This document shows, in pieces, positions 2,662 through 23,312 of a DNA stretch of 46,427 nucleotides. The position numbers were made by a program, and so were the translations under genes. Origin of the DNA: a virus; IMG/VR virus record IMGVR_UViG_3300031565_000074, positions 1 to 46,427 of that record. One strand, written 5' to 3'. The notes below the pieces were generated by a model that saw only the letters and a program-made list of their open reading frames with translations, was not told the origin of the DNA and ran no database searches. Numbering within the stretch: position 1 is the stretch's first letter; each line of letters starts with the position of its first letter.

Positions 2662-3969
2662 CTATCTGGACCCGGACAATTTCTCCGACTTCTTATCCGT
2701 GTACTCCTCCCACCGTTGGATTATCTGATCCACCTGCGCCGGCGCCATCTCGATCGCCACGCAGCGCCGCCCTATCTTCTCGGCCGCTATCAGGGTGGTC
2801 CCGGACCCGGCGAATGGATCCAGCACCAAGTCGTCTCGCTGTGTCATCAACAGCATCGCCTGCACCGGCAGCGCCACCGGGAAACAGGCCTTGTTGTCAT
2901 CGGTCTGCGAGTCCATCGTGGTGATCCGCCAGTAGTTGCTCACTCCCCGCAGCGCCTTCTTGTTGAAGTAGTGCGCCTTCTGGTTGGTCCCCAGGAAGCA
3001 AAGCTCGAGATCCTGGGCCACGTCCTCAGCTGTGCCCATCGCCAGGATGTTCTCATACTGCCGTGTCAGTCCTCCCTTGCCAACTACCGGCATGGCCTTC
3101 CCCTTGTCCCAGACTATATTCTCCAGGAACATCAGGCCGGTTTCCTTGATGATCCTGTAGTAGATCTCGATCCACTCCCAGCACGCGTTCTTGTTATAGC
3201 TCAGGTTCCAGAATAGAAAGCCGGCCAGGTGACCGACCACGTTCTTGATCACCGCCAGGTTGAGGTCTATGTATTCCTTGCCTTTCAGATCGTCGGTGTA
3301 GTTCTTGTACATCGCCCCGGCCATGTTGTATGGCGGCGACGTGAAGCACAACTTGGCCTTCTCCCCCTTGATCACAGCCTCGAGGACCTGGGGCTTTGTA
3401 GAATCTCCGCAGGTTAGCCGATGTTCCCCCAGCCTATAGATATCCCCCGCCTTGGAAGATGGCTTGCTGGGGGCCTTTGGGATGTCGTTTTCGTCTTTCT
3501 TCCCGGCGGCCACTATACCAGCCACCATATTGGCCACCTTGTCGTCTATCTCCCCGAAGCTGAAGCTGTCGCTCACTTCTTCGATCGTGATATCCGTGTC
3601 CTCGATGAATCCCTGCAGGCCCTTCATGTTGGCCCGTCCGTATTGCGACGCCATGGCCAGCACCTTCCGCTTCGCGTCTTTGTAATCCTTCGCCTGGACC
3701 AGGCTGACCGGCAGCTTCGGTATCGCGTAGCCTTCTTTCTTCAGCTCCTTGAGGATCAGCAGCCGCTGGTGGCCGTTGAGCACGTAGTTGGTCCCGGCCG
3801 ATTTCCAAACGCTTATCGGCTCGCTGAAGCCCAGCTCCAGGATCTCCTTGCGCAGCTTTCTGAAATTGTCGCGGGTTAGTTTCTTAAGCTCGCCTTGAAA
3901 GGCGGTCAATTCCTGCAGGTCGATTGAGGTTGCCCCCTCACACCTGATCTTGATCTTACCCTTGGCCAT
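2662..3969 (-). CDS. ParB-domain / DNA methyltransferase fusion (N4-cytosine or N6-adenine type)
   Basis: A 435-residue protein. Residues 1-100 resemble a ParB/Srx-like domain (NGHQR at 65-69, NYVLNGHQRLLILKEL context). The C-terminal half is an amino-methyltransferase with the catalytic TSPPYN at 210-215 and the S-adenosylmethionine-binding DPFAGSGTT at 384-392. Catalytic motif before SAM motif is the beta-class order. SPPY is commonest in N4-cytosine enzymes, but N6-adenine cannot be excluded. ATG 3969 is preceded by AGGAGGAG; a longer frame to 4212 is low-complexity and unsupported. No partner restriction enzyme is seen, so this is probably an orphan enzyme for protecting or marking phage DNA. 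Confidence 0.88.
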   Translation of the reverse strand: MAKGKIKIRCEGATSIDLQELTAFQGELKKLTRDNFRKLRKEILELGFSEPISVWKSAGTNYVLNGHQRLLILKELKKEGYAIPKLPVSLVQAKDYKDAKRKVLAMASQYGRANMKGLQGFIEDTDITIEEVSDSFSFGEIDDKVANMVAGIVAAGKKDENDIPKAPSKPSSKAGDIYRLGEHRLTCGDSTKPQVLEAVIKGEKAKLCFTSPPYNMAGAMYKNYTDDLKGKEYIDLNLAVIKNVVGHLAGFLFWNLSYNKNACWEWIEIYYRIIKETGLMFLENIVWDKGKAMPVVGKGGLTRQYENILAMGTAEDVAQDLELCFLGTNQKAHYFNKKALRGVSNYWRITTMDSQTDDNKACFPVALPVQAMLLMTQRDDLVLDPFAGSGTTLIAAEKIGRRCVAIEMAPAQVDQIIQRWEEYTDKKSEKLSGSR

Positions 3970-4019
3970 CTTCTCCTCCTCGCCAGACAGTATATCACGG
4001 CTGCCGGCGGTGGCAATAT

Positions 4020-4559
4020 TTATTCTTTCCCCAGGTACTCGAAGACCGGATCGGTCACCTTCTTCACCTTCACCGGCACGACCTCGAGGACGTCCTCCAC
4101 TATCGTCTCGGCCAGGTCCCGCAGTTCCGCCCTTGTCCATACCTCCTTGCCGCTGATCTTCGCCCACCTGATCAGGTACAGGCCCACAGACTTGTCCTTC
4201 TCCGGCTTGCACACCTGGACGAATCCCACGCCGACCAGCCCGTCATATTTTTCCATCGTTCTGGTCTGCACGGCGTTGAGCTTATTGATCCTGAAGTTCA
4301 TGCCCTTTTCCGTTCGCGCCTTCACCGTCTTGACCTCGATCCACTGGCTCACCAGGGCGATGTCGGCCGGCTTGTAAGGCGTGAAGCGCTGGTTAGGATC
4401 ATCCCCGGCGCCGCGGCCGCAGCGATCACACACCAACCCCGATCCGCAGTGCTTACATTTGCCGGACATCTCGGCCCAGGTATCCGGCGGCTTGTAGGCC
4501 ATGATGCCCTGCTTCTCGTAGTGCTTCTTAAGTTTTTTGTGGAAGTCTCTTTCGATCAT
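4020..4559 (-). CDS. RecU/Holliday-resolvase-like PD-(D/E)XK nuclease with zinc-ribbon insert
   Basis: A 179-residue protein. The core PADIALVSQWIEVKT (about 64-78) supplies the D66 ... E75-x-K77 pattern of PD-(D/E)XK nucleases. It is followed by a region resembling RecU-type resolvases (NKLNAVQTRTMEKYDGLVGVGF). A four-cysteine ribbon (C35, C38, C44, C47) is inserted just before the catalytic strand, which is unusual for RecU. It would plausibly resolve recombination or replication branches alongside the Bet annealing protein. It overlaps the RMF-like gene upstream by 32 bases and has GAGCGAA before ATG 4559. Confidence 0.65.
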   Translation of the reverse strand: MIERDFHKKLKKHYEKQGIMAYKPPDTWAEMSGKCKHCGSGLVCDRCGRGAGDDPNQRFTPYKPADIALVSQWIEVKTVKARTEKGMNFRINKLNAVQTRTMEKYDGLVGVGFVQVCKPEKDKSVGLYLIRWAKISGKEVWTRAELRDLAETIVEDVLEVVPVKVKKVTDPVFEYLGKE

Positions 4560-5737: not shown

Positions 5738-7276
5738 TTACGAAGCGACCGCTTTCTTCTTGCCGGTCTTCTTCTCCTTGGCCTTGGCCTCCTTGTCAGC
5801 CTTGGCCTTGGCCGCCTTGATCTCCTCATCCACCAGCAGCGCCCCGTTCTTTCCGATGACCTTCAGGTCTATCTTGTAGAACTTGGCCATCGCCTTACAT
5901 CCGTTGCCGTCGTCTCTTGCCAGCGCCTCCATCAGGATCCCCACCAGCACGTTGGGCCTGGACTTGGGGATGGCGTTGATCTTCAGCCGTTTCATAGCCT
6001 CTCTAACCCGCCACCTGATACCTCCGTAGCCGCTGGTCAACGCCACCATCACCATCTTCAGCTCATCGCCGGCAAGCTCCTTCGACCTGCTCGCCCGGTC
6101 ATAGATCTGAATGTAAAGCATCTCGCGGCAGCGGTCCCTTATCGCTTCCTTCCTCTCGTCGCGCGCCTGCTCCGCAGGGTTGGCGCGATGCTGAAGCTCG
6201 ATATACGGCAGCCGCTTGAACCCGAGCCGCTTCATCGCCTCTCGCAGCTCCGCCGTCTTGGCCACCGTGTACTTCTTGCCGTTGGTACCGAACACCACGC
6301 CACGCCGCAGCTTGTCGTCGGCCTTCAGGACCTTGGCCCACAGGCGGTGCTTCTCGTCGTATTCGCATTGACCCGAGATGTCGGTCCAGTTGCCACCGAC
6401 TCCCATGTATCCCTTGGGCCTGGCGCTCGCCGCCTCCTTGGCCTCGAGGACGTCTTCCCCGCGCTTCTTCGCCTGCTCAATCGCTCGCTTGATGTGGGCC
6501 TTGACCTTCTTTTGGAAGCAGGCGGGATCAGTGCAAAGGTCTTCCTTCCCGATGTCCTGGAACAGCTCCGGCTGTTTGCCGGTCCGCTTCGGGCAGTCCT
6601 TACACGCTCCAGCCTCGGGGACCAGCTCCTTGTCCGAAGTGCTGAAAGAGGCCTTGGCAAGCTGCAGCATGTACGTGGATTTGATATGGTCCCTGGCGTC
6701 ACCGTCGCCATCCATGTATTGAGCCTCATCAACGATGTGCTCTGCCGCCTTGTCCTGCAGGCCAGCGTCCGGGATCCTGGCGATGTATAGCGCCACGGTC
6801 GTTGAGTACTTCCCTTCCCGGAATAGCTTGCGCGCCTTCTCGCTCAGCTCGGTCAGCTTGAGCCTCTGATAAATATAGGTCGGGCTTTTCCCGACCTCCT
6901 TGGCCACCTGCGCCGCGGCGTATCCGTGCTTGCTGATCAGCGCCTTGTAACCGTCCGCTTCCTCGAGCGGGTGAACGTCGGCCCGGTGCAGGTTTTCTAT
7001 CAGCTGGATCTCCAGCACCTGCTCGTCGTCGAACTCTCCGACCCGCACGTCCATCTGCTTCAGCCCGGCCGCCCTGGCCGCCCGGTAGCGCCTCTCGCCG
7101 GCGATGATCTCATAGCCGCCGTTGCGCTTCCGGACCAGTATGGGCTGTAGCACCCCGTGGGTCCGCACGCTCTCGGTCAGTTCCTTGAGAGCGGCGGCGT
7201 CAAATGTTTTCCTCGGGTTGAGCGGCGACGTCTGTATATTCGCCAACTCCACCCTCGCGGTCTGTGTGTCCTGCAT
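5738..7276 (-). CDS. parB: ParB/RepB/Spo0J-family DNA-binding protein
   Basis: A 512-residue protein. Residues 8-110 carry the ParB N-terminal domain (NPRKTF near 20, GVLQPILVR, GERRYRAAR at 60-68, which is the CTP/arginine-patch box). Residues 112-150 form the helix-turn-helix (YAAAQVAKEVGKSPTYIYQRLKL, written here as its parts: AAAQVAKEVGKS and PTYIYQRLKL). A CxxC/CxxxxC set (C224, C227, C247, C252) suggests a metal site, and the long C-terminal part ends in a Lys/Ala tail. No ParA is visible, so a role in plasmid-like partition is unsupported; regulation or replication-site binding is as likely. AGGGG precedes ATG 7276. It follows SSB by 12 bases. Confidence 0.85.
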   Translation of the reverse strand: MQDTQTARVELANIQTSPLNPRKTFDAAALKELTESVRTHGVLQPILVRKRNGGYEIIAGERRYRAARAAGLKQMDVRVGEFDDEQVLEIQLIENLHRADVHPLEEADGYKALISKHGYAAAQVAKEVGKSPTYIYQRLKLTELSEKARKLFREGKYSTTVALYIARIPDAGLQDKAAEHIVDEAQYMDGDGDARDHIKSTYMLQLAKASFSTSDKELVPEAGACKDCPKRTGKQPELFQDIGKEDLCTDPACFQKKVKAHIKRAIEQAKKRGEDVLEAKEAASARPKGYMGVGGNWTDISGQCEYDEKHRLWAKVLKADDKLRRGVVFGTNGKKYTVAKTAELREAMKRLGFKRLPYIELQHRANPAEQARDERKEAIRDRCREMLYIQIYDRASRSKELAGDELKMVMVALTSGYGGIRWRVREAMKRLKINAIPKSRPNVLVGILMEALARDDGNGCKAMAKFYKIDLKVIGKNGALLVDEEIKAAKAKADKEAKAKEKKTGKKKAVAS

Positions 7277-16727: not shown

Positions 16728-17168
16728 TTACTTGAACGCCCCTACCGCCTCATAGGGAGTCAGCGCGAACTCCACCCGGTCCTTCAGGTGGTCAAGCGCC
16801 AGCTCGCATTGTAGATACACGGCCTTGTTGTCCCTGACTTCCTGCTCGGTCAGCTTCTCGACCGACGGATATAGAGATAGCCGCTTGTTGAATTCCACTA
16901 CGTTCTCCTCCGGGATCACCATCACCACTATCGCAAACCGCGCGTCGCGCATGTTCTCGGAATCGTAAAGCACGATGTCCATCTTCCGCAGCTCCCGCAG
17001 AGCTCGCGGAATAGCCGGATGCAACCTGCCGTCATACCTGATCGGGACCCGCACGGCAATGACTTCATCCGTTGTCTTCACCGGGTCCGCCGCCTTGCTG
17101 GTATCAAACGACTGCGCCACCAACATCGCACCCGCCACCACCAGGATCATAAGCGCCAGCTGTTTCAT
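16728..17168 (-). CDS. Predicted exported protein with signal peptide
   Basis: 146 residues with AGGAGG before ATG 17168. The N-terminus MKQLALMILVVAGAMLVAQS is a Sec-type signal (Lys, hydrophobic core, small residues near the cleavage point). The mature part is mixed alpha/beta with no family I recognise. It sits with three other exported or membrane genes after the lysis genes, so it is probably a late accessory (moron-like) protein acting in the envelope. Confidence 0.65.
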   Translation of the reverse strand: MKQLALMILVVAGAMLVAQSFDTSKAADPVKTTDEVIAVRVPIRYDGRLHPAIPRALRELRKMDIVLYDSENMRDARFAIVVMVIPEENVVEFNKRLSLYPSVEKLTEQEVRDNKAVYLQCELALDHLKDRVEFALTPYEAVGAFK

Positions 17169-17176
17169 CTATCCTC

Positions 17177-18556
17177 CTAATCTTCCGTTGGGAAACTTGT
17201 TTTTGCGTCGGTGGATAATCGCACTTCGTCTATAAGGCCGTATTGAAACACGTTGCCATTATTAAGGCCGCACCCGAGATAGTGCAGGGTGTCCGACGGG
17301 GAATTGTTGGTCGCCAGCGTTAGCCTTTCCGTGTTGTCGATGTAAAGATACACATCGCTCCCATCGTCCAGGATCAGTCCGAAGTGATACCAGACGTTCG
17401 TGGAAAGATTGTAAGTGCCGGACCAGCCGTTAGAATAGATGCGAGTGCTTACCTGGCCGCCGACCCTGTCAAACCGCAGATTCATCTGCACCCCGCCGTC
17501 GCTCGTTTCCCACGCTCTATCATCCGCAAAGTCGCCGCCGGTAAATACGAGGGCATACATCTCCACTGTCTTGATCGTGGCAACGACGGTGTTGGTAATA
17601 GATTCAGCAATAGCGAACGGCCCAGCAGAATATGATCCCACTTTATAGGTCGTTCCGTTGAACGGAACCGGTCCGGTGTTTACCCAGTTATCCTCCAGGC
17701 CAGTAGCGTCAACCACGTTGTTCTCGAGGTGAAGCAGTGACGCAGTACCTTCGGCAAACGTCACCGGATGCCCCTTCCAGATGAGCCTCTTGTAGTCCTG
17801 GTATACGGGGGTCGGCGTAACTGCGGGCGTGTTCGTTATAGTAGGAGTGGCCGTTGGTGTGTCTTCGGGGCAAGGTGGGTGTAGTTCTACCGCGTGTATG
17901 ACACCGGGATTGCTTGCCGTGTAGCCGTAACTCATAACCACAGCGCCAGCAACCGCCTTGCCCTCGTCATCACCAAGCATCTTCGTTCTGGATATTACAG
18001 TGCCCAAAGTAGCCAAGACCGTATACCGTTCTGTTTGACTGACATCCTCCGTGATTATTCCGCTGCCCTCCCACGCCGCAGTCCCAAGCACCAGCGAATC
18101 GTCCTCCGTGGTCGTGACCGTAACAGCGCCGCTCGCCGCATTCACTGTCACGCCGGAGCTGTTTCCAAGCGGTGTCGCCTGGCATACGCCAGTATAACTC
18201 CTTACCCCGATCGCACACTTCACCGAGGCCGAAAGAAAGATGCTGACCGGATGCGCTCCGGGATTTGGATCCAGCACATAATAGACATACAATCCTTCGC
18301 TGGCGCTTTCGAGATTGAAAAGTTCCGTCGCCGTGGTCCCGTTGTAAGTCACCAGCGTCACCGGATCTGCAGTGGTGGGATCATAGCCTATCTCTATGAG
18401 CAGAAACCTGTTGATGCCGTTGCACGTATGCGATTGCACAAAGACGCTCGCGGTCCCGTTGTTCGTCGATGCGTTATCAAAAACCGGAGCCGTCACCGCA
18501 TAGCCCACCACCGGCAGTAAGACCACCGAAACTGCAAACAACAGTTTTCTAAGCAT
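17177..18556 (-). CDS. Exported LamG/concanavalin-like adhesin-type protein
   Basis: A 459-residue protein starting with a Sec signal (MLRKLLFAVSVVLLPVVGYA). An N-terminal beta domain (about 25-235) is joined by a Thr/Pro linker (TPTATPTITNTPAVTPTP) to a C-terminal concanavalin/LamG-like fold (about 265-459; WYHFGLILDDGSDVYLYID and GLIDEVRLS). Such lectin folds are common in phage tail fibres, but fibres made in the cytoplasm do not carry Sec signals. Export suggests display in the periplasm or on the host surface. AGGAGGAGC precedes the ATG. Confidence 0.75.
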   Translation of the reverse strand: MLRKLLFAVSVVLLPVVGYAVTAPVFDNASTNNGTASVFVQSHTCNGINRFLLIEIGYDPTTADPVTLVTYNGTTATELFNLESASEGLYVYYVLDPNPGAHPVSIFLSASVKCAIGVRSYTGVCQATPLGNSSGVTVNAASGAVTVTTTEDDSLVLGTAAWEGSGIITEDVSQTERYTVLATLGTVISRTKMLGDDEGKAVAGAVVMSYGYTASNPGVIHAVELHPPCPEDTPTATPTITNTPAVTPTPVYQDYKRLIWKGHPVTFAEGTASLLHLENNVVDATGLEDNWVNTGPVPFNGTTYKVGSYSAGPFAIAESITNTVVATIKTVEMYALVFTGGDFADDRAWETSDGGVQMNLRFDRVGGQVSTRIYSNGWSGTYNLSTNVWYHFGLILDDGSDVYLYIDNTERLTLATNNSPSDTLHYLGCGLNNGNVFQYGLIDEVRLSTDAKTSFPTED

Positions 18557-18563
18557 GCTCCTC

Positions 18564-20696
18564 CTAGTCTATGATGTACCCAGTTGCCCTGATCCCGTGA
18601 TCAACCGCCTGCGTCGTGTCGATCTCAAGATCTTTGTCGGTATCCAAAATCCAGAGCGGCATATTCTTGGCGCCAGGCTCGACAGCACCAGACCCCTGAC
18701 CATTACAGTAGACGGTGGGAGAAACATCAGTATCGTCTTCATCTTGAAATTGGAATGTCTGAGTATCGTTCGCTGTGTAGAAGGCATAGGTGAAAACTAT
18801 TCGCTTGCCAGCGGGGCAGGTCATGACAACAGTGTTCGTTTGAGCCGCGGCCCAGTCGGCCACAAAGTGCCACTCCGACCCATCTAGGACGGCTCGCGCT
18901 CCAATCGTGTTAGCGGAAGCGTCGGCGATAATCACCGTGCCGTCTACCGTAATCGTGTTTCCGCCATCCTGTATGTTTACAGCAGAAGCGCCGGCCGCGT
19001 TGTTAATCGTAGCATCACCGATGTCTACGCCTGAGTTGGCGCCTAGCGTTCCGATGCTCGCTGTTCCAGCCGCGAGCTCTACCGTCTCACCATCGAGCGT
19101 CACCTTGACATCGCCGCCAGCCTCGCCGACCACTTCCAGATTGCCGCTGCCATCCAGGCTCGAGGAATCCGTGCCGTCGGTTAGCCTTACATAGAGATAG
19201 TCCACCACCGCGCCATCACCAACGTCGGCCGTTACAGCGCTACCATCGGCGATGGCCACGTTTCCTATCTGCTGCGTCCCAGCCGGAAGCTCGGCCACCA
19301 CGTCCATCTGCAAATTGCCATCGGTGTCAGTCATTATATCCTGGGTGTTTCCGGCCCCGTCTTTTCCTCCAATGCGAAGCGGGAGTCCGACAACGCCCGA
19401 GCCATCAGCACCACCTCCAACAACGACCACTCGCCCGCCGCTATCTGTAAAGATATCCTGAGCATTATCGCTATTGTCTCTCCCGGCTATGCGGAGACTA
19501 CCTCCAACCGCAGCTGCACCGTCCGCCTGCTGTCCTTGAACATAAACACCAGCGGCGCCAGTAGCGTTGTTTACAGTGACGTCTCCTATATCAGTGCCGC
19601 TAACCATCTTGCCATCGATGCTTACCAGAGCCGCGGTGCCGGTGGTGCCGTTGCCCTCTATCACCCCGAGCTGCAGGGACTGGCTCTCTACCTCTGCCAG
19701 AAGTGTATTGCCGTTCCCTTCTATCGCCCCAAGTTCAAGCAACGCACTGTCCAGCCTCGCCACTGCAGTTATGCCGTTCCCCTCTATCACACCAAGCTGG
19801 AGTTTTATGATTTCCTGATTGGCTACAGACGTGGTGCCGTTCCCTTCAATAACCCCGAGCTGTAAAGATTGGCTGTCAAGCTCAGTGTTGATCGCAGTCA
19901 CCCCTGCATCAATCGCACTCGCCGTGACGTTTAACGTCGTTCCGTTCCCTTCGATCACGCCTAGCTGCAAAGACTGAGCATCCAGCTCGCTATTGATCGC
20001 CGTCACTCCTGCGTCGATTGCGGTGGCGGTAACATTGAGCGTTGTGCCGTTGCCTTCTATGACTCCTAGTTGGAGTTTCATTATTTCCTCGTTGGCCACG
20101 GACGTCGTTCCGTTGCCTTCAATGACACCCAGCTGTAATGACTGTGCTATCTGCTCTAGCTCGATTGCCGCGAGGCTGGCAGTTCCAGTTGTGCCATTCC
20201 CTTCGATGACTCCGAGTTGCAACGACTGACTATCAAGTTCTGTGTTGATCGCGGTTACTCCGGCGTCTATCGTGGACGCTGTCACGTTAAGCGTCGTGCC
20301 GTTCCCCTCGATGACTCCGAGCTGCAGCTTCATGATCTCCTGGTTGGCCACGGCGGTAGTACCGTTGCCTTCGATGATTCCCAGCTGCAGGGATTGAGTC
20401 TCGAGCTCGGCGAGCGTCGTGTTCCCGATCCCCTCGATCGCCTGGGTCGCGTCCTTGATCGCCTCCAGCTGCGGCCCGGCCACCGTGATGGTGTTGGGCC
20501 CGGCGTCAACGATGGTATGGCCGCTGACGTTTAGCCGGACGTTGAGCGGGATCAGGTTGCCGCTCCCGGCGTCGTAGACGCCCATCTCCACCTTGTAGTT
20601 GTACTTATCCTGGGCCGCTACCTCTGCCCGCGGCGCCGCCCATGAGCTGACCACTAACAAACCGGCCGCCAGCATGGCCGTGATGATTTTCTTCAT
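18564..20696 (-). CDS. Exported 710-residue repeat (fibre-like) protein
   Basis: A signal peptide (MKKIITAMLAAGLLVVSSWA) and a short head are followed by 11 copies of a 12-residue box (consensus LQLGVIEGNGTT) at residues 82-352. The boxes are spaced by 9, 16 or 23 residues, so each unit is 21, 28 or 35 residues, always a multiple of 7. A Gly/Asp-rich shaft (two LRI-x-G-x-D ... QDI-x-TD-x-x-G repeats near 400-470) and a C-terminal globular domain follow (PAGKRIVFTYAFY to the end). This looks like a trimeric fibre or autotransporter-like adhesin. ATGA overlap couples it to the transglycosylase gene. Start ATG 20696 with GGGAGCGAG. Confidence 0.75.
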   Translation of the reverse strand: MKKIITAMLAAGLLVVSSWAAPRAEVAAQDKYNYKVEMGVYDAGSGNLIPLNVRLNVSGHTIVDAGPNTITVAGPQLEAIKDATQAIEGIGNTTLAELETQSLQLGIIEGNGTTAVANQEIMKLQLGVIEGNGTTLNVTASTIDAGVTAINTELDSQSLQLGVIEGNGTTGTASLAAIELEQIAQSLQLGVIEGNGTTSVANEEIMKLQLGVIEGNGTTLNVTATAIDAGVTAINSELDAQSLQLGVIEGNGTTLNVTASAIDAGVTAINTELDSQSLQLGVIEGNGTTSVANQEIIKLQLGVIEGNGITAVARLDSALLELGAIEGNGNTLLAEVESQSLQLGVIEGNGTTGTAALVSIDGKMVSGTDIGDVTVNNATGAAGVYVQGQQADGAAAVGGSLRIAGRDNSDNAQDIFTDSGGRVVVVGGGADGSGVVGLPLRIGGKDGAGNTQDIMTDTDGNLQMDVVAELPAGTQQIGNVAIADGSAVTADVGDGAVVDYLYVRLTDGTDSSSLDGSGNLEVVGEAGGDVKVTLDGETVELAAGTASIGTLGANSGVDIGDATINNAAGASAVNIQDGGNTITVDGTVIIADASANTIGARAVLDGSEWHFVADWAAAQTNTVVMTCPAGKRIVFTYAFYTANDTQTFQFQDEDDTDVSPTVYCNGQGSGAVEPGAKNMPLWILDTDKDLEIDTTQAVDHGIRATGYIID
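19641..20453 (-). repeat. Heptad-locked protein repeat array (11 boxes)
   Basis: Eleven coding repeats, of which nine or ten are near-identical in protein but differ at most third codon positions. Unit lengths in order are 21, 21, 35, 28, 21, 35, 35, 21, 21 and 21 residues. The DNA is thus diverged while the protein is conserved. Confidence 0.85.
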
Positions 20697-21340
20697 CGTC
20701 TCGCTCCCTGTTGAAAGATTACCGCTCGTATCTGTTCCAGCCGCTCCTTGTGATTCAGATGATGTGTATAGGTCAATTTCACGCTTCCCGCTTCTTCTTG
20801 AGCGATCAACGCATCCGCCTTGGGCTCGCCCGAATTATACGCCAGCAACACCCGGCGCAAATCGCCATCATATTTGTAATACAATCCCTCGACGTGCAGC
20901 ACCATGAGCCTGATGTTGAATCCGGGATTGAGCAGGGCATAACGCAAGTTGGTGACCTCGATCCCCTCACGCCGGCAGATACTCCCACCGGTTCCCAGCG
21001 TGATGCTTCCCAGTCCATAGCTGCGGCCCGTCCCCTCTTCGACGTTGTTAGTTGCATCGCCGAGCGATTCAATGTCTATCAAGGCAGCATACCATTCCAC
21101 GTCCTTGATAACCGTGTCCAGCTGGTCGACCAGTTCCAGCCAACTGCGGACCTCCTTTGGCATCGGCCTATACCGCCCGTTCTTGCTCCAGCGCTTATGA
21201 CAAGCATCGGCCAGATCAACCAGGTCGCGCTCCGCTTGCTGGCGCCGGGCCTCTGCCACTATATCCGCCGTTGCCCAGACCGCCACACCTATCCCGCAGA
21301 AGATCAGGACCAGGAGCGCTGTGCTTTTCATTGTCTGCAT
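20693..21340 (-). CDS. Membrane-anchored lytic transglycosylase-like protein
   Basis: 215 residues with a single N-terminal membrane segment (ALLVLIFCGIGVAVWATA). The catalytic-type region YAALIDIESLGDATN is followed by SYGLGSITLGTGG and the helix IRLMVLHVEGLYYKYDGD ... RVLLAYNSG. This is the SLT/lysozyme-like order, with the Glu of IESLG as the likely catalytic acid. It cleaves peptidoglycan from the inner-membrane side. It sits next to the glucosaminidase and holin, completing the lysis module. ATG 21340 has GGAG seven bases upstream. Confidence 0.75.
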   Translation of the reverse strand: MQTMKSTALLVLIFCGIGVAVWATADIVAEARRQQAERDLVDLADACHKRWSKNGRYRPMPKEVRSWLELVDQLDTVIKDVEWYAALIDIESLGDATNNVEEGTGRSYGLGSITLGTGGSICRREGIEVTNLRYALLNPGFNIRLMVLHVEGLYYKYDGDLRRVLLAYNSGEPKADALIAQEEAGSVKLTYTHHLNHKERLEQIRAVIFQQGARR

Positions 21341-22313: not shown

Positions 22314-23312
22314 CTATCGCTTGACCTTGTAACCGATTACCCTGGCGATATTCACCGTCGTGTTGGCACCGTTTTTCTTCGCCCTCAATACGTTCCCGCT
22401 ATTCGCCGCCTCGCTCGTCCTCAACCAATATGTTCCTTCGAGCACCAGCGTCGCCCCGGTCGGTGTAGCCGTAAGCCCGATGTTCTGTCTGTTTGTTCCT
22501 GATTGCGAGAAGTCCATTGAAATCGTCGTGCCACCGACCACGTCGCTAAACTTGATATATAGGAGTATTTCAACTGTGTTTTGTGGCAACTGAGTAATAG
22601 CGACATCGGAGGCGACGACCCCGACTGCGTCTAGCTTTGCCTGTATATCTATTCCAATATCTGCGATAACATACTCGGTAACAACCTGGCTCTGCACCTG
22701 AGACACGCCGCCTCGAAGCAGTGGGTCAACGTGGATCCAGTTAGTTCCATCCGATTTGAATTTAATCGAATCATACTGGCCATAAAGGAAATAGTCCGTC
22801 GAGCCATCCGTTATCATGACGGCACCCTCGTTCGCGTCTACCTTCATCACCGTATAGATATTGTCTGTATCTGCGGCGGCCGGCAGCGTGATGGTGACAT
22901 CTTTGCGCCAGTCCAGGTTGCCGCCGCCGCCACCTGCGTTGACCGTGCCGTCGAGAGAAAAGGTGTCATCGTTTATTCTCGTGACGGTGTAGTGGATGTT
23001 GCCAATCTCCCCCGCGACTGTAGAGCCAGACACCACTATCGTGTCCCCGGTCACCAGCCCGTGTGCCACATCAGACACCACAGACGGGGTGGCGGCGCTG
23101 AACGCCTTGGTGGTTTCCTTGGTGTTAGCGTTTGTCACCCTTACGAGGCCGGCCTTGTCCGCGGCCAGTATCGTATAATCAACGCTCTTGGCGATCCCCA
23201 GCATCATCTCGCTGATGTTCTGGTACACCCTGGCGAATTCGCTGTTGAGCACCGTCCCGTCATTATCGCTGGTCAAGTCCCAGGTCCTTACTTGAGCTGG
23301 ATTGTAGGTCAT
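22314..23312 (-). CDS. Tail fibre/tail-tip structural protein
   Basis: 332 residues. Residues 75-125 (VVSDVAHGLVTGDTIVVSGS, HYTVTRINDDTFSLDGT) match a small beta domain found repeatedly in phage tail proteins, usually labelled FCCH-like. A glycine run (GGGGG near 128-132) separates it from a beta-rich C-terminal part that looks like a receptor-binding tip. It follows the baseplate genes and precedes lysis, where tail fibres usually lie. TGATG overlap with the upstream stop. Confidence 0.65.
   Translation of the reverse strand: MTYNPAQVRTWDLTSDNDGTVLNSEFARVYQNISEMMLGIAKSVDYTILAADKAGLVRVTNANTKETTKAFSAATPSVVSDVAHGLVTGDTIVVSGSTVAGEIGNIHYTVTRINDDTFSLDGTVNAGGGGGNLDWRKDVTITLPAAADTDNIYTVMKVDANEGAVMITDGSTDYFLYGQYDSIKFKSDGTNWIHVDPLLRGGVSQVQSQVVTEYVIADIGIDIQAKLDAVGVVASDVAITQLPQNTVEILLYIKFSDVVGGTTISMDFSQSGTNRQNIGLTATPTGATLVLEGTYWLRTSEAANSGNVLRAKKNGANTTVNIARVIGYKVKR

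Follow-up and report, generated by a model that had tools for sequence, protein, structure and literature searches.

A candidate exported fibre with a heptad-spaced repeat in an uncultured tailed phage

What holds a repeat in a phage protein to length steps of seven residues, and what would that protein do with an N-terminus resembling a signal peptide? Both questions are raised by a 710-residue open reading frame on the minus strand of the window, by which we mean the whole stretch of DNA analysed, a 46,427-base IMG/VR record of a tailed bacterial virus that was sampled from the environment. Minus-strand coordinates 20453..19641, corresponding to residues 82–352 of the frame, contain a box with the pattern L.LG.IEGNG.T in 10 strict copies (at residues 103, 124, 159, 187, 208, 243, 278, 299, 320 and 341) and a degenerate 11th copy, DATQAIEGIGNT, at residue 82. 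Successive boxes lie 21, 21, 35, 28, 21, 35, 35, 21, 21 and 21 residues apart, each a multiple of 7, so that the eleven boxes, the coordinates and the 21/28/35 spacing of the original prediction were all right. The spacers behind the 12-residue box measure 9, 16 or 23 residues (2 mod 7) and fall into six distinct types (TLAELETQS, [AS]VAN[QE]EI[MI]K, LNVTA..DSQS, GTASLAAIELEQIAQS, AVARLDSAL and LLAEVESQS); if spacers are taken as independent, the probability that all six share one class mod 7 is estimated at ~7^-6 to 7^-5.

Table. Window coordinates of the fibre-like gene, its parts and its signal-peptide-like neighbours, with the basis of each assignment.
Feature	Coordinates	Strand	Basis
CDS, 710-residue fibre-like protein	18564..20696	-	Open reading frame; unchanged in second contig
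Signal-peptide-like N-terminus, residues 1-27, MKKIITAMLAAGLLVVSSWAAPRAEVA	20616..20696	-	KK n-region, hydrophobic core, A-x-A-type c-region
N-terminal region, residues 28-81	20454..20615	-	Family searches: no match
Heptad repeat region, residues 82-366, 11 boxes and spacers of 9/16/23 residues	19599..20453	-	
Continuous modelled helix, residues 289-348 (60 residues)	19653..19832	-	AlphaFold2 with alignment, pLDDT mostly 71-88
First DIGDVTVNN module, residues 369-377, behind last heptads	19566..19592	-	DIGDVT[IV]NN conserved, 12 aligned sequences
Second module, GVDIGDATINNAAGASAVNIQDGGNTITVDGTV, about residues 555-588	18933..19034	-	Up to about 90% identity to relatives
C-terminal tip domain, residues 598-710	18567..18905	-	Iterative profile and alignment
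215-aa SLT transglycosylase, hydrophobic N-terminus	20693..21340	-	Pfam SLT 4.7e-5, above cut-off
459-aa protein, signal-peptide-like start, LamG-like C-terminal half	17177..18556	-	Fold reading; no own Pfam match
146-aa protein, signal-peptide-like start	16728..17168	-	L017 counterpart, E = 3e-13

The copies are old. Among 540 pairs from the ten boxes, 308 codon differences are synonymous and 43 non-synonymous, with a median dS of 1.7 and a mean dN of 0.04 (rough estimates, as dS comes from saturated 36-base copies). Since codon use is very different and non-synonymous changes are few, the boxes are not recent duplicates and their residues are held by purifying selection. A second IMG/VR contig, L082, matches the window at 99.8% identity over 11,166 bases, and all 20 mismatches lie outside the 710-residue gene; because this twin carries the gene with zero differences, the array is not an assembly artefact.

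We then placed the repeat in a heptad register in which the box start is column 1 and columns 3 and 6 are taken as a/d. In this register I, L, V, M or F occupies 48 of 81 a/d positions versus 38 of 204 elsewhere (p = 7e-11, with the register picked post hoc, a choice that costs a factor of ~10 in p), and the spacers alone give p = 9e-7. Fourier analysis of the I/L/V/M/F pattern found a signal at 3.5 residues above that of shuffles (p = 0.001), with a third harmonic at 7/3 (2.33 residues) stronger than 7/2, above all in hydropathy. AlphaFold2 run on the full-length single sequence returned strands with hairpins around GNG at low confidence (pLDDT 41). Run on residues 278–393 with a shallow alignment of 15 rows (the repeat's other copies, L017 and relatives spanning the DIGDVTINN junction, chosen without regard to heptads and consisting within the repeat mostly of the protein's own copies), it modelled the monomer with one continuous helix passing through two GNG motifs. 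Against a coiled coil, a rough COILS-type score stayed low (P no higher than 0.1), as it mostly did for relatives, and G and T abound in the box.

Together, the a/d counts and the helix modelled with the alignment back the strict register and coiled-coil stalk of the original prediction, and residues 82–366 are best read as such a stalk, about 42 nm long. The modelled helix is support for a coiled coil and not proof of one; taken strictly, the heptad rule establishes a heptad build for the variable spacers alone, and the box could in principle hide a non-helical element of fixed length. The periodic GNG-type insertions that had also been proposed find no support: GNGTT takes up normal heptad positions, and the helix as predicted continues through GNG. 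Box and spacer would both run in whole heptads along one continuous coiled coil, with units gained or lost only by sevens because other steps would break the a/d register. A beta-hairpin or beta-solenoid stalk with GNG turns, whose sevens come merely from a few duplicated spacer types, would suit the low-confidence single-sequence hairpins, the 7/3-residue hydropathy periodicity and the V, T and G content of the repeat, but is unlikely given the with-alignment helix (pLDDT mostly 71–88), the helix-like spacers NQEIIK, LLAEVESQS and GTASLAAIELEQIAQS, the a/d register that the spacers hold, the 2 mod 7 length of six differing spacers and a junction that aligns with the family segment TTLAAINTKL.

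The heptad rule explains the observation without a new principle, because a coiled-coil stalk predicts such steps; the array nonetheless offers a tidy example from nature of a stalk whose length shifts only in whole heptads, against a background of saturated synonymous sites. Alpha/beta coiled coils with beta-layers, in which insertions give hexads or nonads, are known in phage fibres and bacterial adhesins (PMC4786415). The window protein resembles these as a probable coiled-coil fibre, yet its repeat contains no hexad or nonad insertion, every spacing being whole heptads.

Which proteins are its relatives? The 710-residue protein carries the marks of a large mosaic fibre family of uncultured phages (IGDVTINN/NIQDGG), namely DIGDVT[IV]NN at residues 369–377 and a NIQDGGN.ITVDGT module at ~555–588, and viral contigs yielded 216 candidate stretches that code for a relative. 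Pfam, PHROGs, PDB and GenBank phages contain almost no trace of the family. Sequence searches of Pfam, PHROGs and PDB with the 710-residue protein, and of PDB with its L017 relative and the tip-domain profile, returned nothing above curated cut-offs; tblastn against 50,697 phage records found no match for the window protein and one weak match for that of L017. Pfam matches to Pr_beta_C and DUF4876 fell below cut-off and were rejected as chance. Some relatives match PHROG virion structural proteins, and the genes adjoining family members most often match portal, major head, minor head, decoration and head morphogenesis families.

L017 (IMGVR_UViG_3300031673_000073; phmmer E = 5e-6) is an uncultured phage whose fibre has a signal-peptide-like start, AIDAGVT/NTSL heptads in 14-residue two-heptad repeats, the same modules and a box equivalent, LGVISGDTTSIDGK. 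Since LGVISGDTTSIDGK fits LGVIEGNGTT plus spacer and the junctions align, the box is a local variant of a pair of heptads (LGVISGDTTSIDGK, IAGDTTSIDGK) of the family, in which GDTTS[IL]DGK is present in 17 loci. The box had originally been described as matching no known fibre family; this stands for curated families, but it is a variant within a widespread, uncharacterised phage fibre family. An exact scan for IEGNGTT in 2.9 million viral contigs gave 59 stretches, with more than one copy in the twin contig only and the single copies in proteins outside the mosaic family. The window protein therefore shares beta modules, a heptad helix before DIGDVTINN and a C-terminal tip domain with the family, but differs in its multi-copy box, LQLGVIEGNGTT, found only in the window virus and the twin contig, in its long pure-heptad array and, from most members, in its signal-peptide-like start, present in 9 of 112 family ORFs.

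The last unit, TAALVSIDGKMVSGTDIGDVTVNN, aligns with the family's helix-to-beta junction, TTLAAINTKLVTGTDIGDVTINN, and continues into MVSGTDIGDVTVNN; DIGDVT is invariant in the aligned relatives, where TTLAAINTKLV precedes it. The helix would thus lead into IGDVTINN-type beta modules and then into the tip domain of about 115 residues, which aligns with family C-termini at low identity (12–34%) and whose iterative profile reaches 74 of 111 of them. This domain presumably binds something outside the cell.

Homologues only partly follow the seven-residue rule. Unit lengths are 14 in L017, the nearest relative, 21 or 28 in L187, 21 in L201 and 7 in L164, all multiples of 7, but 13 in the distant relative L200, a departure that the original prediction had itself named as counting against it; the strict heptad form is therefore not family-wide. 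Helix-like repeats across the family gave 5 offsets of 0 mod 7 and 9 of 6 mod 7, many of them spanning beta modules, and so gave no sign of a general seven-residue rule.

We then considered where the protein acts. The minus strand of the window carries terminase, portal, head, tape measure, hub, wedge and Baseplate_J genes, and behind a wedge-like 307-aa gene come, in order, genes for a 332-aa protein, a 126-aa protein with a hydrophobic segment, a glucosaminidase-like protein, the SLT protein and the 710-, 459- and 146-aa proteins. The 710-residue gene is placed after the lysis genes, away from the usual fibre position, on the same strand as the tail, baseplate and lysis genes, and its ATG (20696..18564) shares 4 bases with the stop of the upstream gene (20693..21340). 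Signal-peptide calls were made by eye and with a simple n/h/c rule; among about 55 window ORFs, such starts are confined to the four-gene run 16728–21340. L017 likewise has a trio of fibre, LamG-like and 148-aa proteins with signal-peptide-like starts (30% identity, E = 5e-16, between the 459-aa protein and its counterpart), heptad repeats and shared modules, but differs in having about four repeats only, two further signal-peptide-like genes and a block flanked by the major head protein gene and connector-like genes. A search for further copies of the ~147-residue protein found L017 only. Over 112 fibre loci, adjoining genes had signal-peptide-like starts in 11 of 18 cases beside signal-peptide fibres versus 10 of 194 beside other fibres (p = 1e-8), and in 7 of 14 when the two founding loci were left out (p = 2e-5).

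The protein is thus probably an exported coiled-coil fibre of a tailed phage that works outside the cytoplasm. It would be expressed late, in a phage with a Mu/P2-like baseplate; residues 1–27 would direct it out through the host Sec pathway, and it may oligomerise, adhere and act together with the exported LamG-like and 147-residue neighbours. Its most likely role, we think, is to decorate particles or act as an adhesin, coming into contact with virions or cell surfaces beyond the cytoplasm no later than lysis. Of these two sites we slightly prefer the virion, as relatives of the protein include annotated virion structural proteins and adjoin head genes. A signal peptide is, however, at odds with virion assembly in the cytoplasm, and the gene's place behind the lysis genes instead of at the usual fibre position also speaks against this reading.

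Alternatively, the protein could be an accessory, non-virion product that is exported and displayed at the surface or in the surroundings of an infected or lysogenic cell, where it might, for instance, block superinfection or alter adhesion. The signal-peptide-like start, an exported gene block behind the lysis genes, the LamG-like neighbour and the retention of the trio in the distant phage L017 all fit such a role, which we nevertheless regard as somewhat unlikely: most relatives have no signal peptide and lie next to head genes, matches to virion structural families occur among them, the gene is tightly packed on the same strand as the late genes and a Pfam search matched no outer-membrane anchor. 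Trimeric autotransporter adhesins of the YadA type would be comparable in being exported and modular with a heptad stalk, but have a C-terminal anchor of which the Pfam search found none in the phage-encoded 710-aa protein.

Tailed phages as a rule put their fibres together in the cytoplasm. An ordinary fibre assembled at this usual site, with the hydrophobic N-terminus as a virion-attachment or membrane-insertion segment, is nonetheless unlikely here, as the full n/h/c organisation occurs in four adjacent genes only of about 55 ORFs and signal-peptide-like genes cluster in unrelated phages too. Evidence in favour of a cytoplasmic fibre also comes from a survey that counted a lack of signal peptides as support for the phage origin of variable binding proteins (PMC6199706).

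An exported fibre remains our preferred reading. Blocks that combine exported fibre and lectin-like proteins are unusual in tailed phages, we found no description of exported tailed-phage fibre blocks in the open-access literature, and the block, as read from rule-based signal-peptide calls, may be what is new here beyond the stalk. Less expected than the heptads is that family fibres of several unrelated phages have signal-peptide-like starts and sit in runs of such genes. Tentatively, it is possible that some tailed phages export a matched fibre, LamG-like and 147-residue set before lysis, loading adhesion proteins onto particles or cell surfaces outside the cytoplasm. If so, the infected cell would export phage adhesion proteins, contrary to the assumed folding and assembly of fibres in the cytoplasm, and a missing signal peptide would be no safe mark of phage origin.

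Further runs were seen in other contigs. Five consecutive signal-peptide-like genes lie in the head module of L017 (4747–10057), including a Laminin_G_3 protein and a possible beta-helix protein; four lie ahead of a terminase-like gene in L172 (4696–12727), where a 147-aa product resembles a lone fibre tip domain; and L190 (1132–10145), L199 (2585–6689) and L086 (7566–10645) each have a three-gene run that includes a family fibre. Between the window and its twin contig, 13 of the 20 mismatches are concentrated in the LamG-like gene (17657–17858); most of these are synonymous, and the cluster resembles a recombined patch. The 332-aa gene (22314–23312), which holds the usual tail-fibre position and may encode the actual receptor-binding fibre, differs from the twin at five sites, all non-synonymous and within codons 207–263 in its C-terminal third. 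Elsewhere in the window (2662–4212 and 5738–7276), two separate ORFs carry ParB-like domains, one of them fused to a DNA methyltransferase domain.
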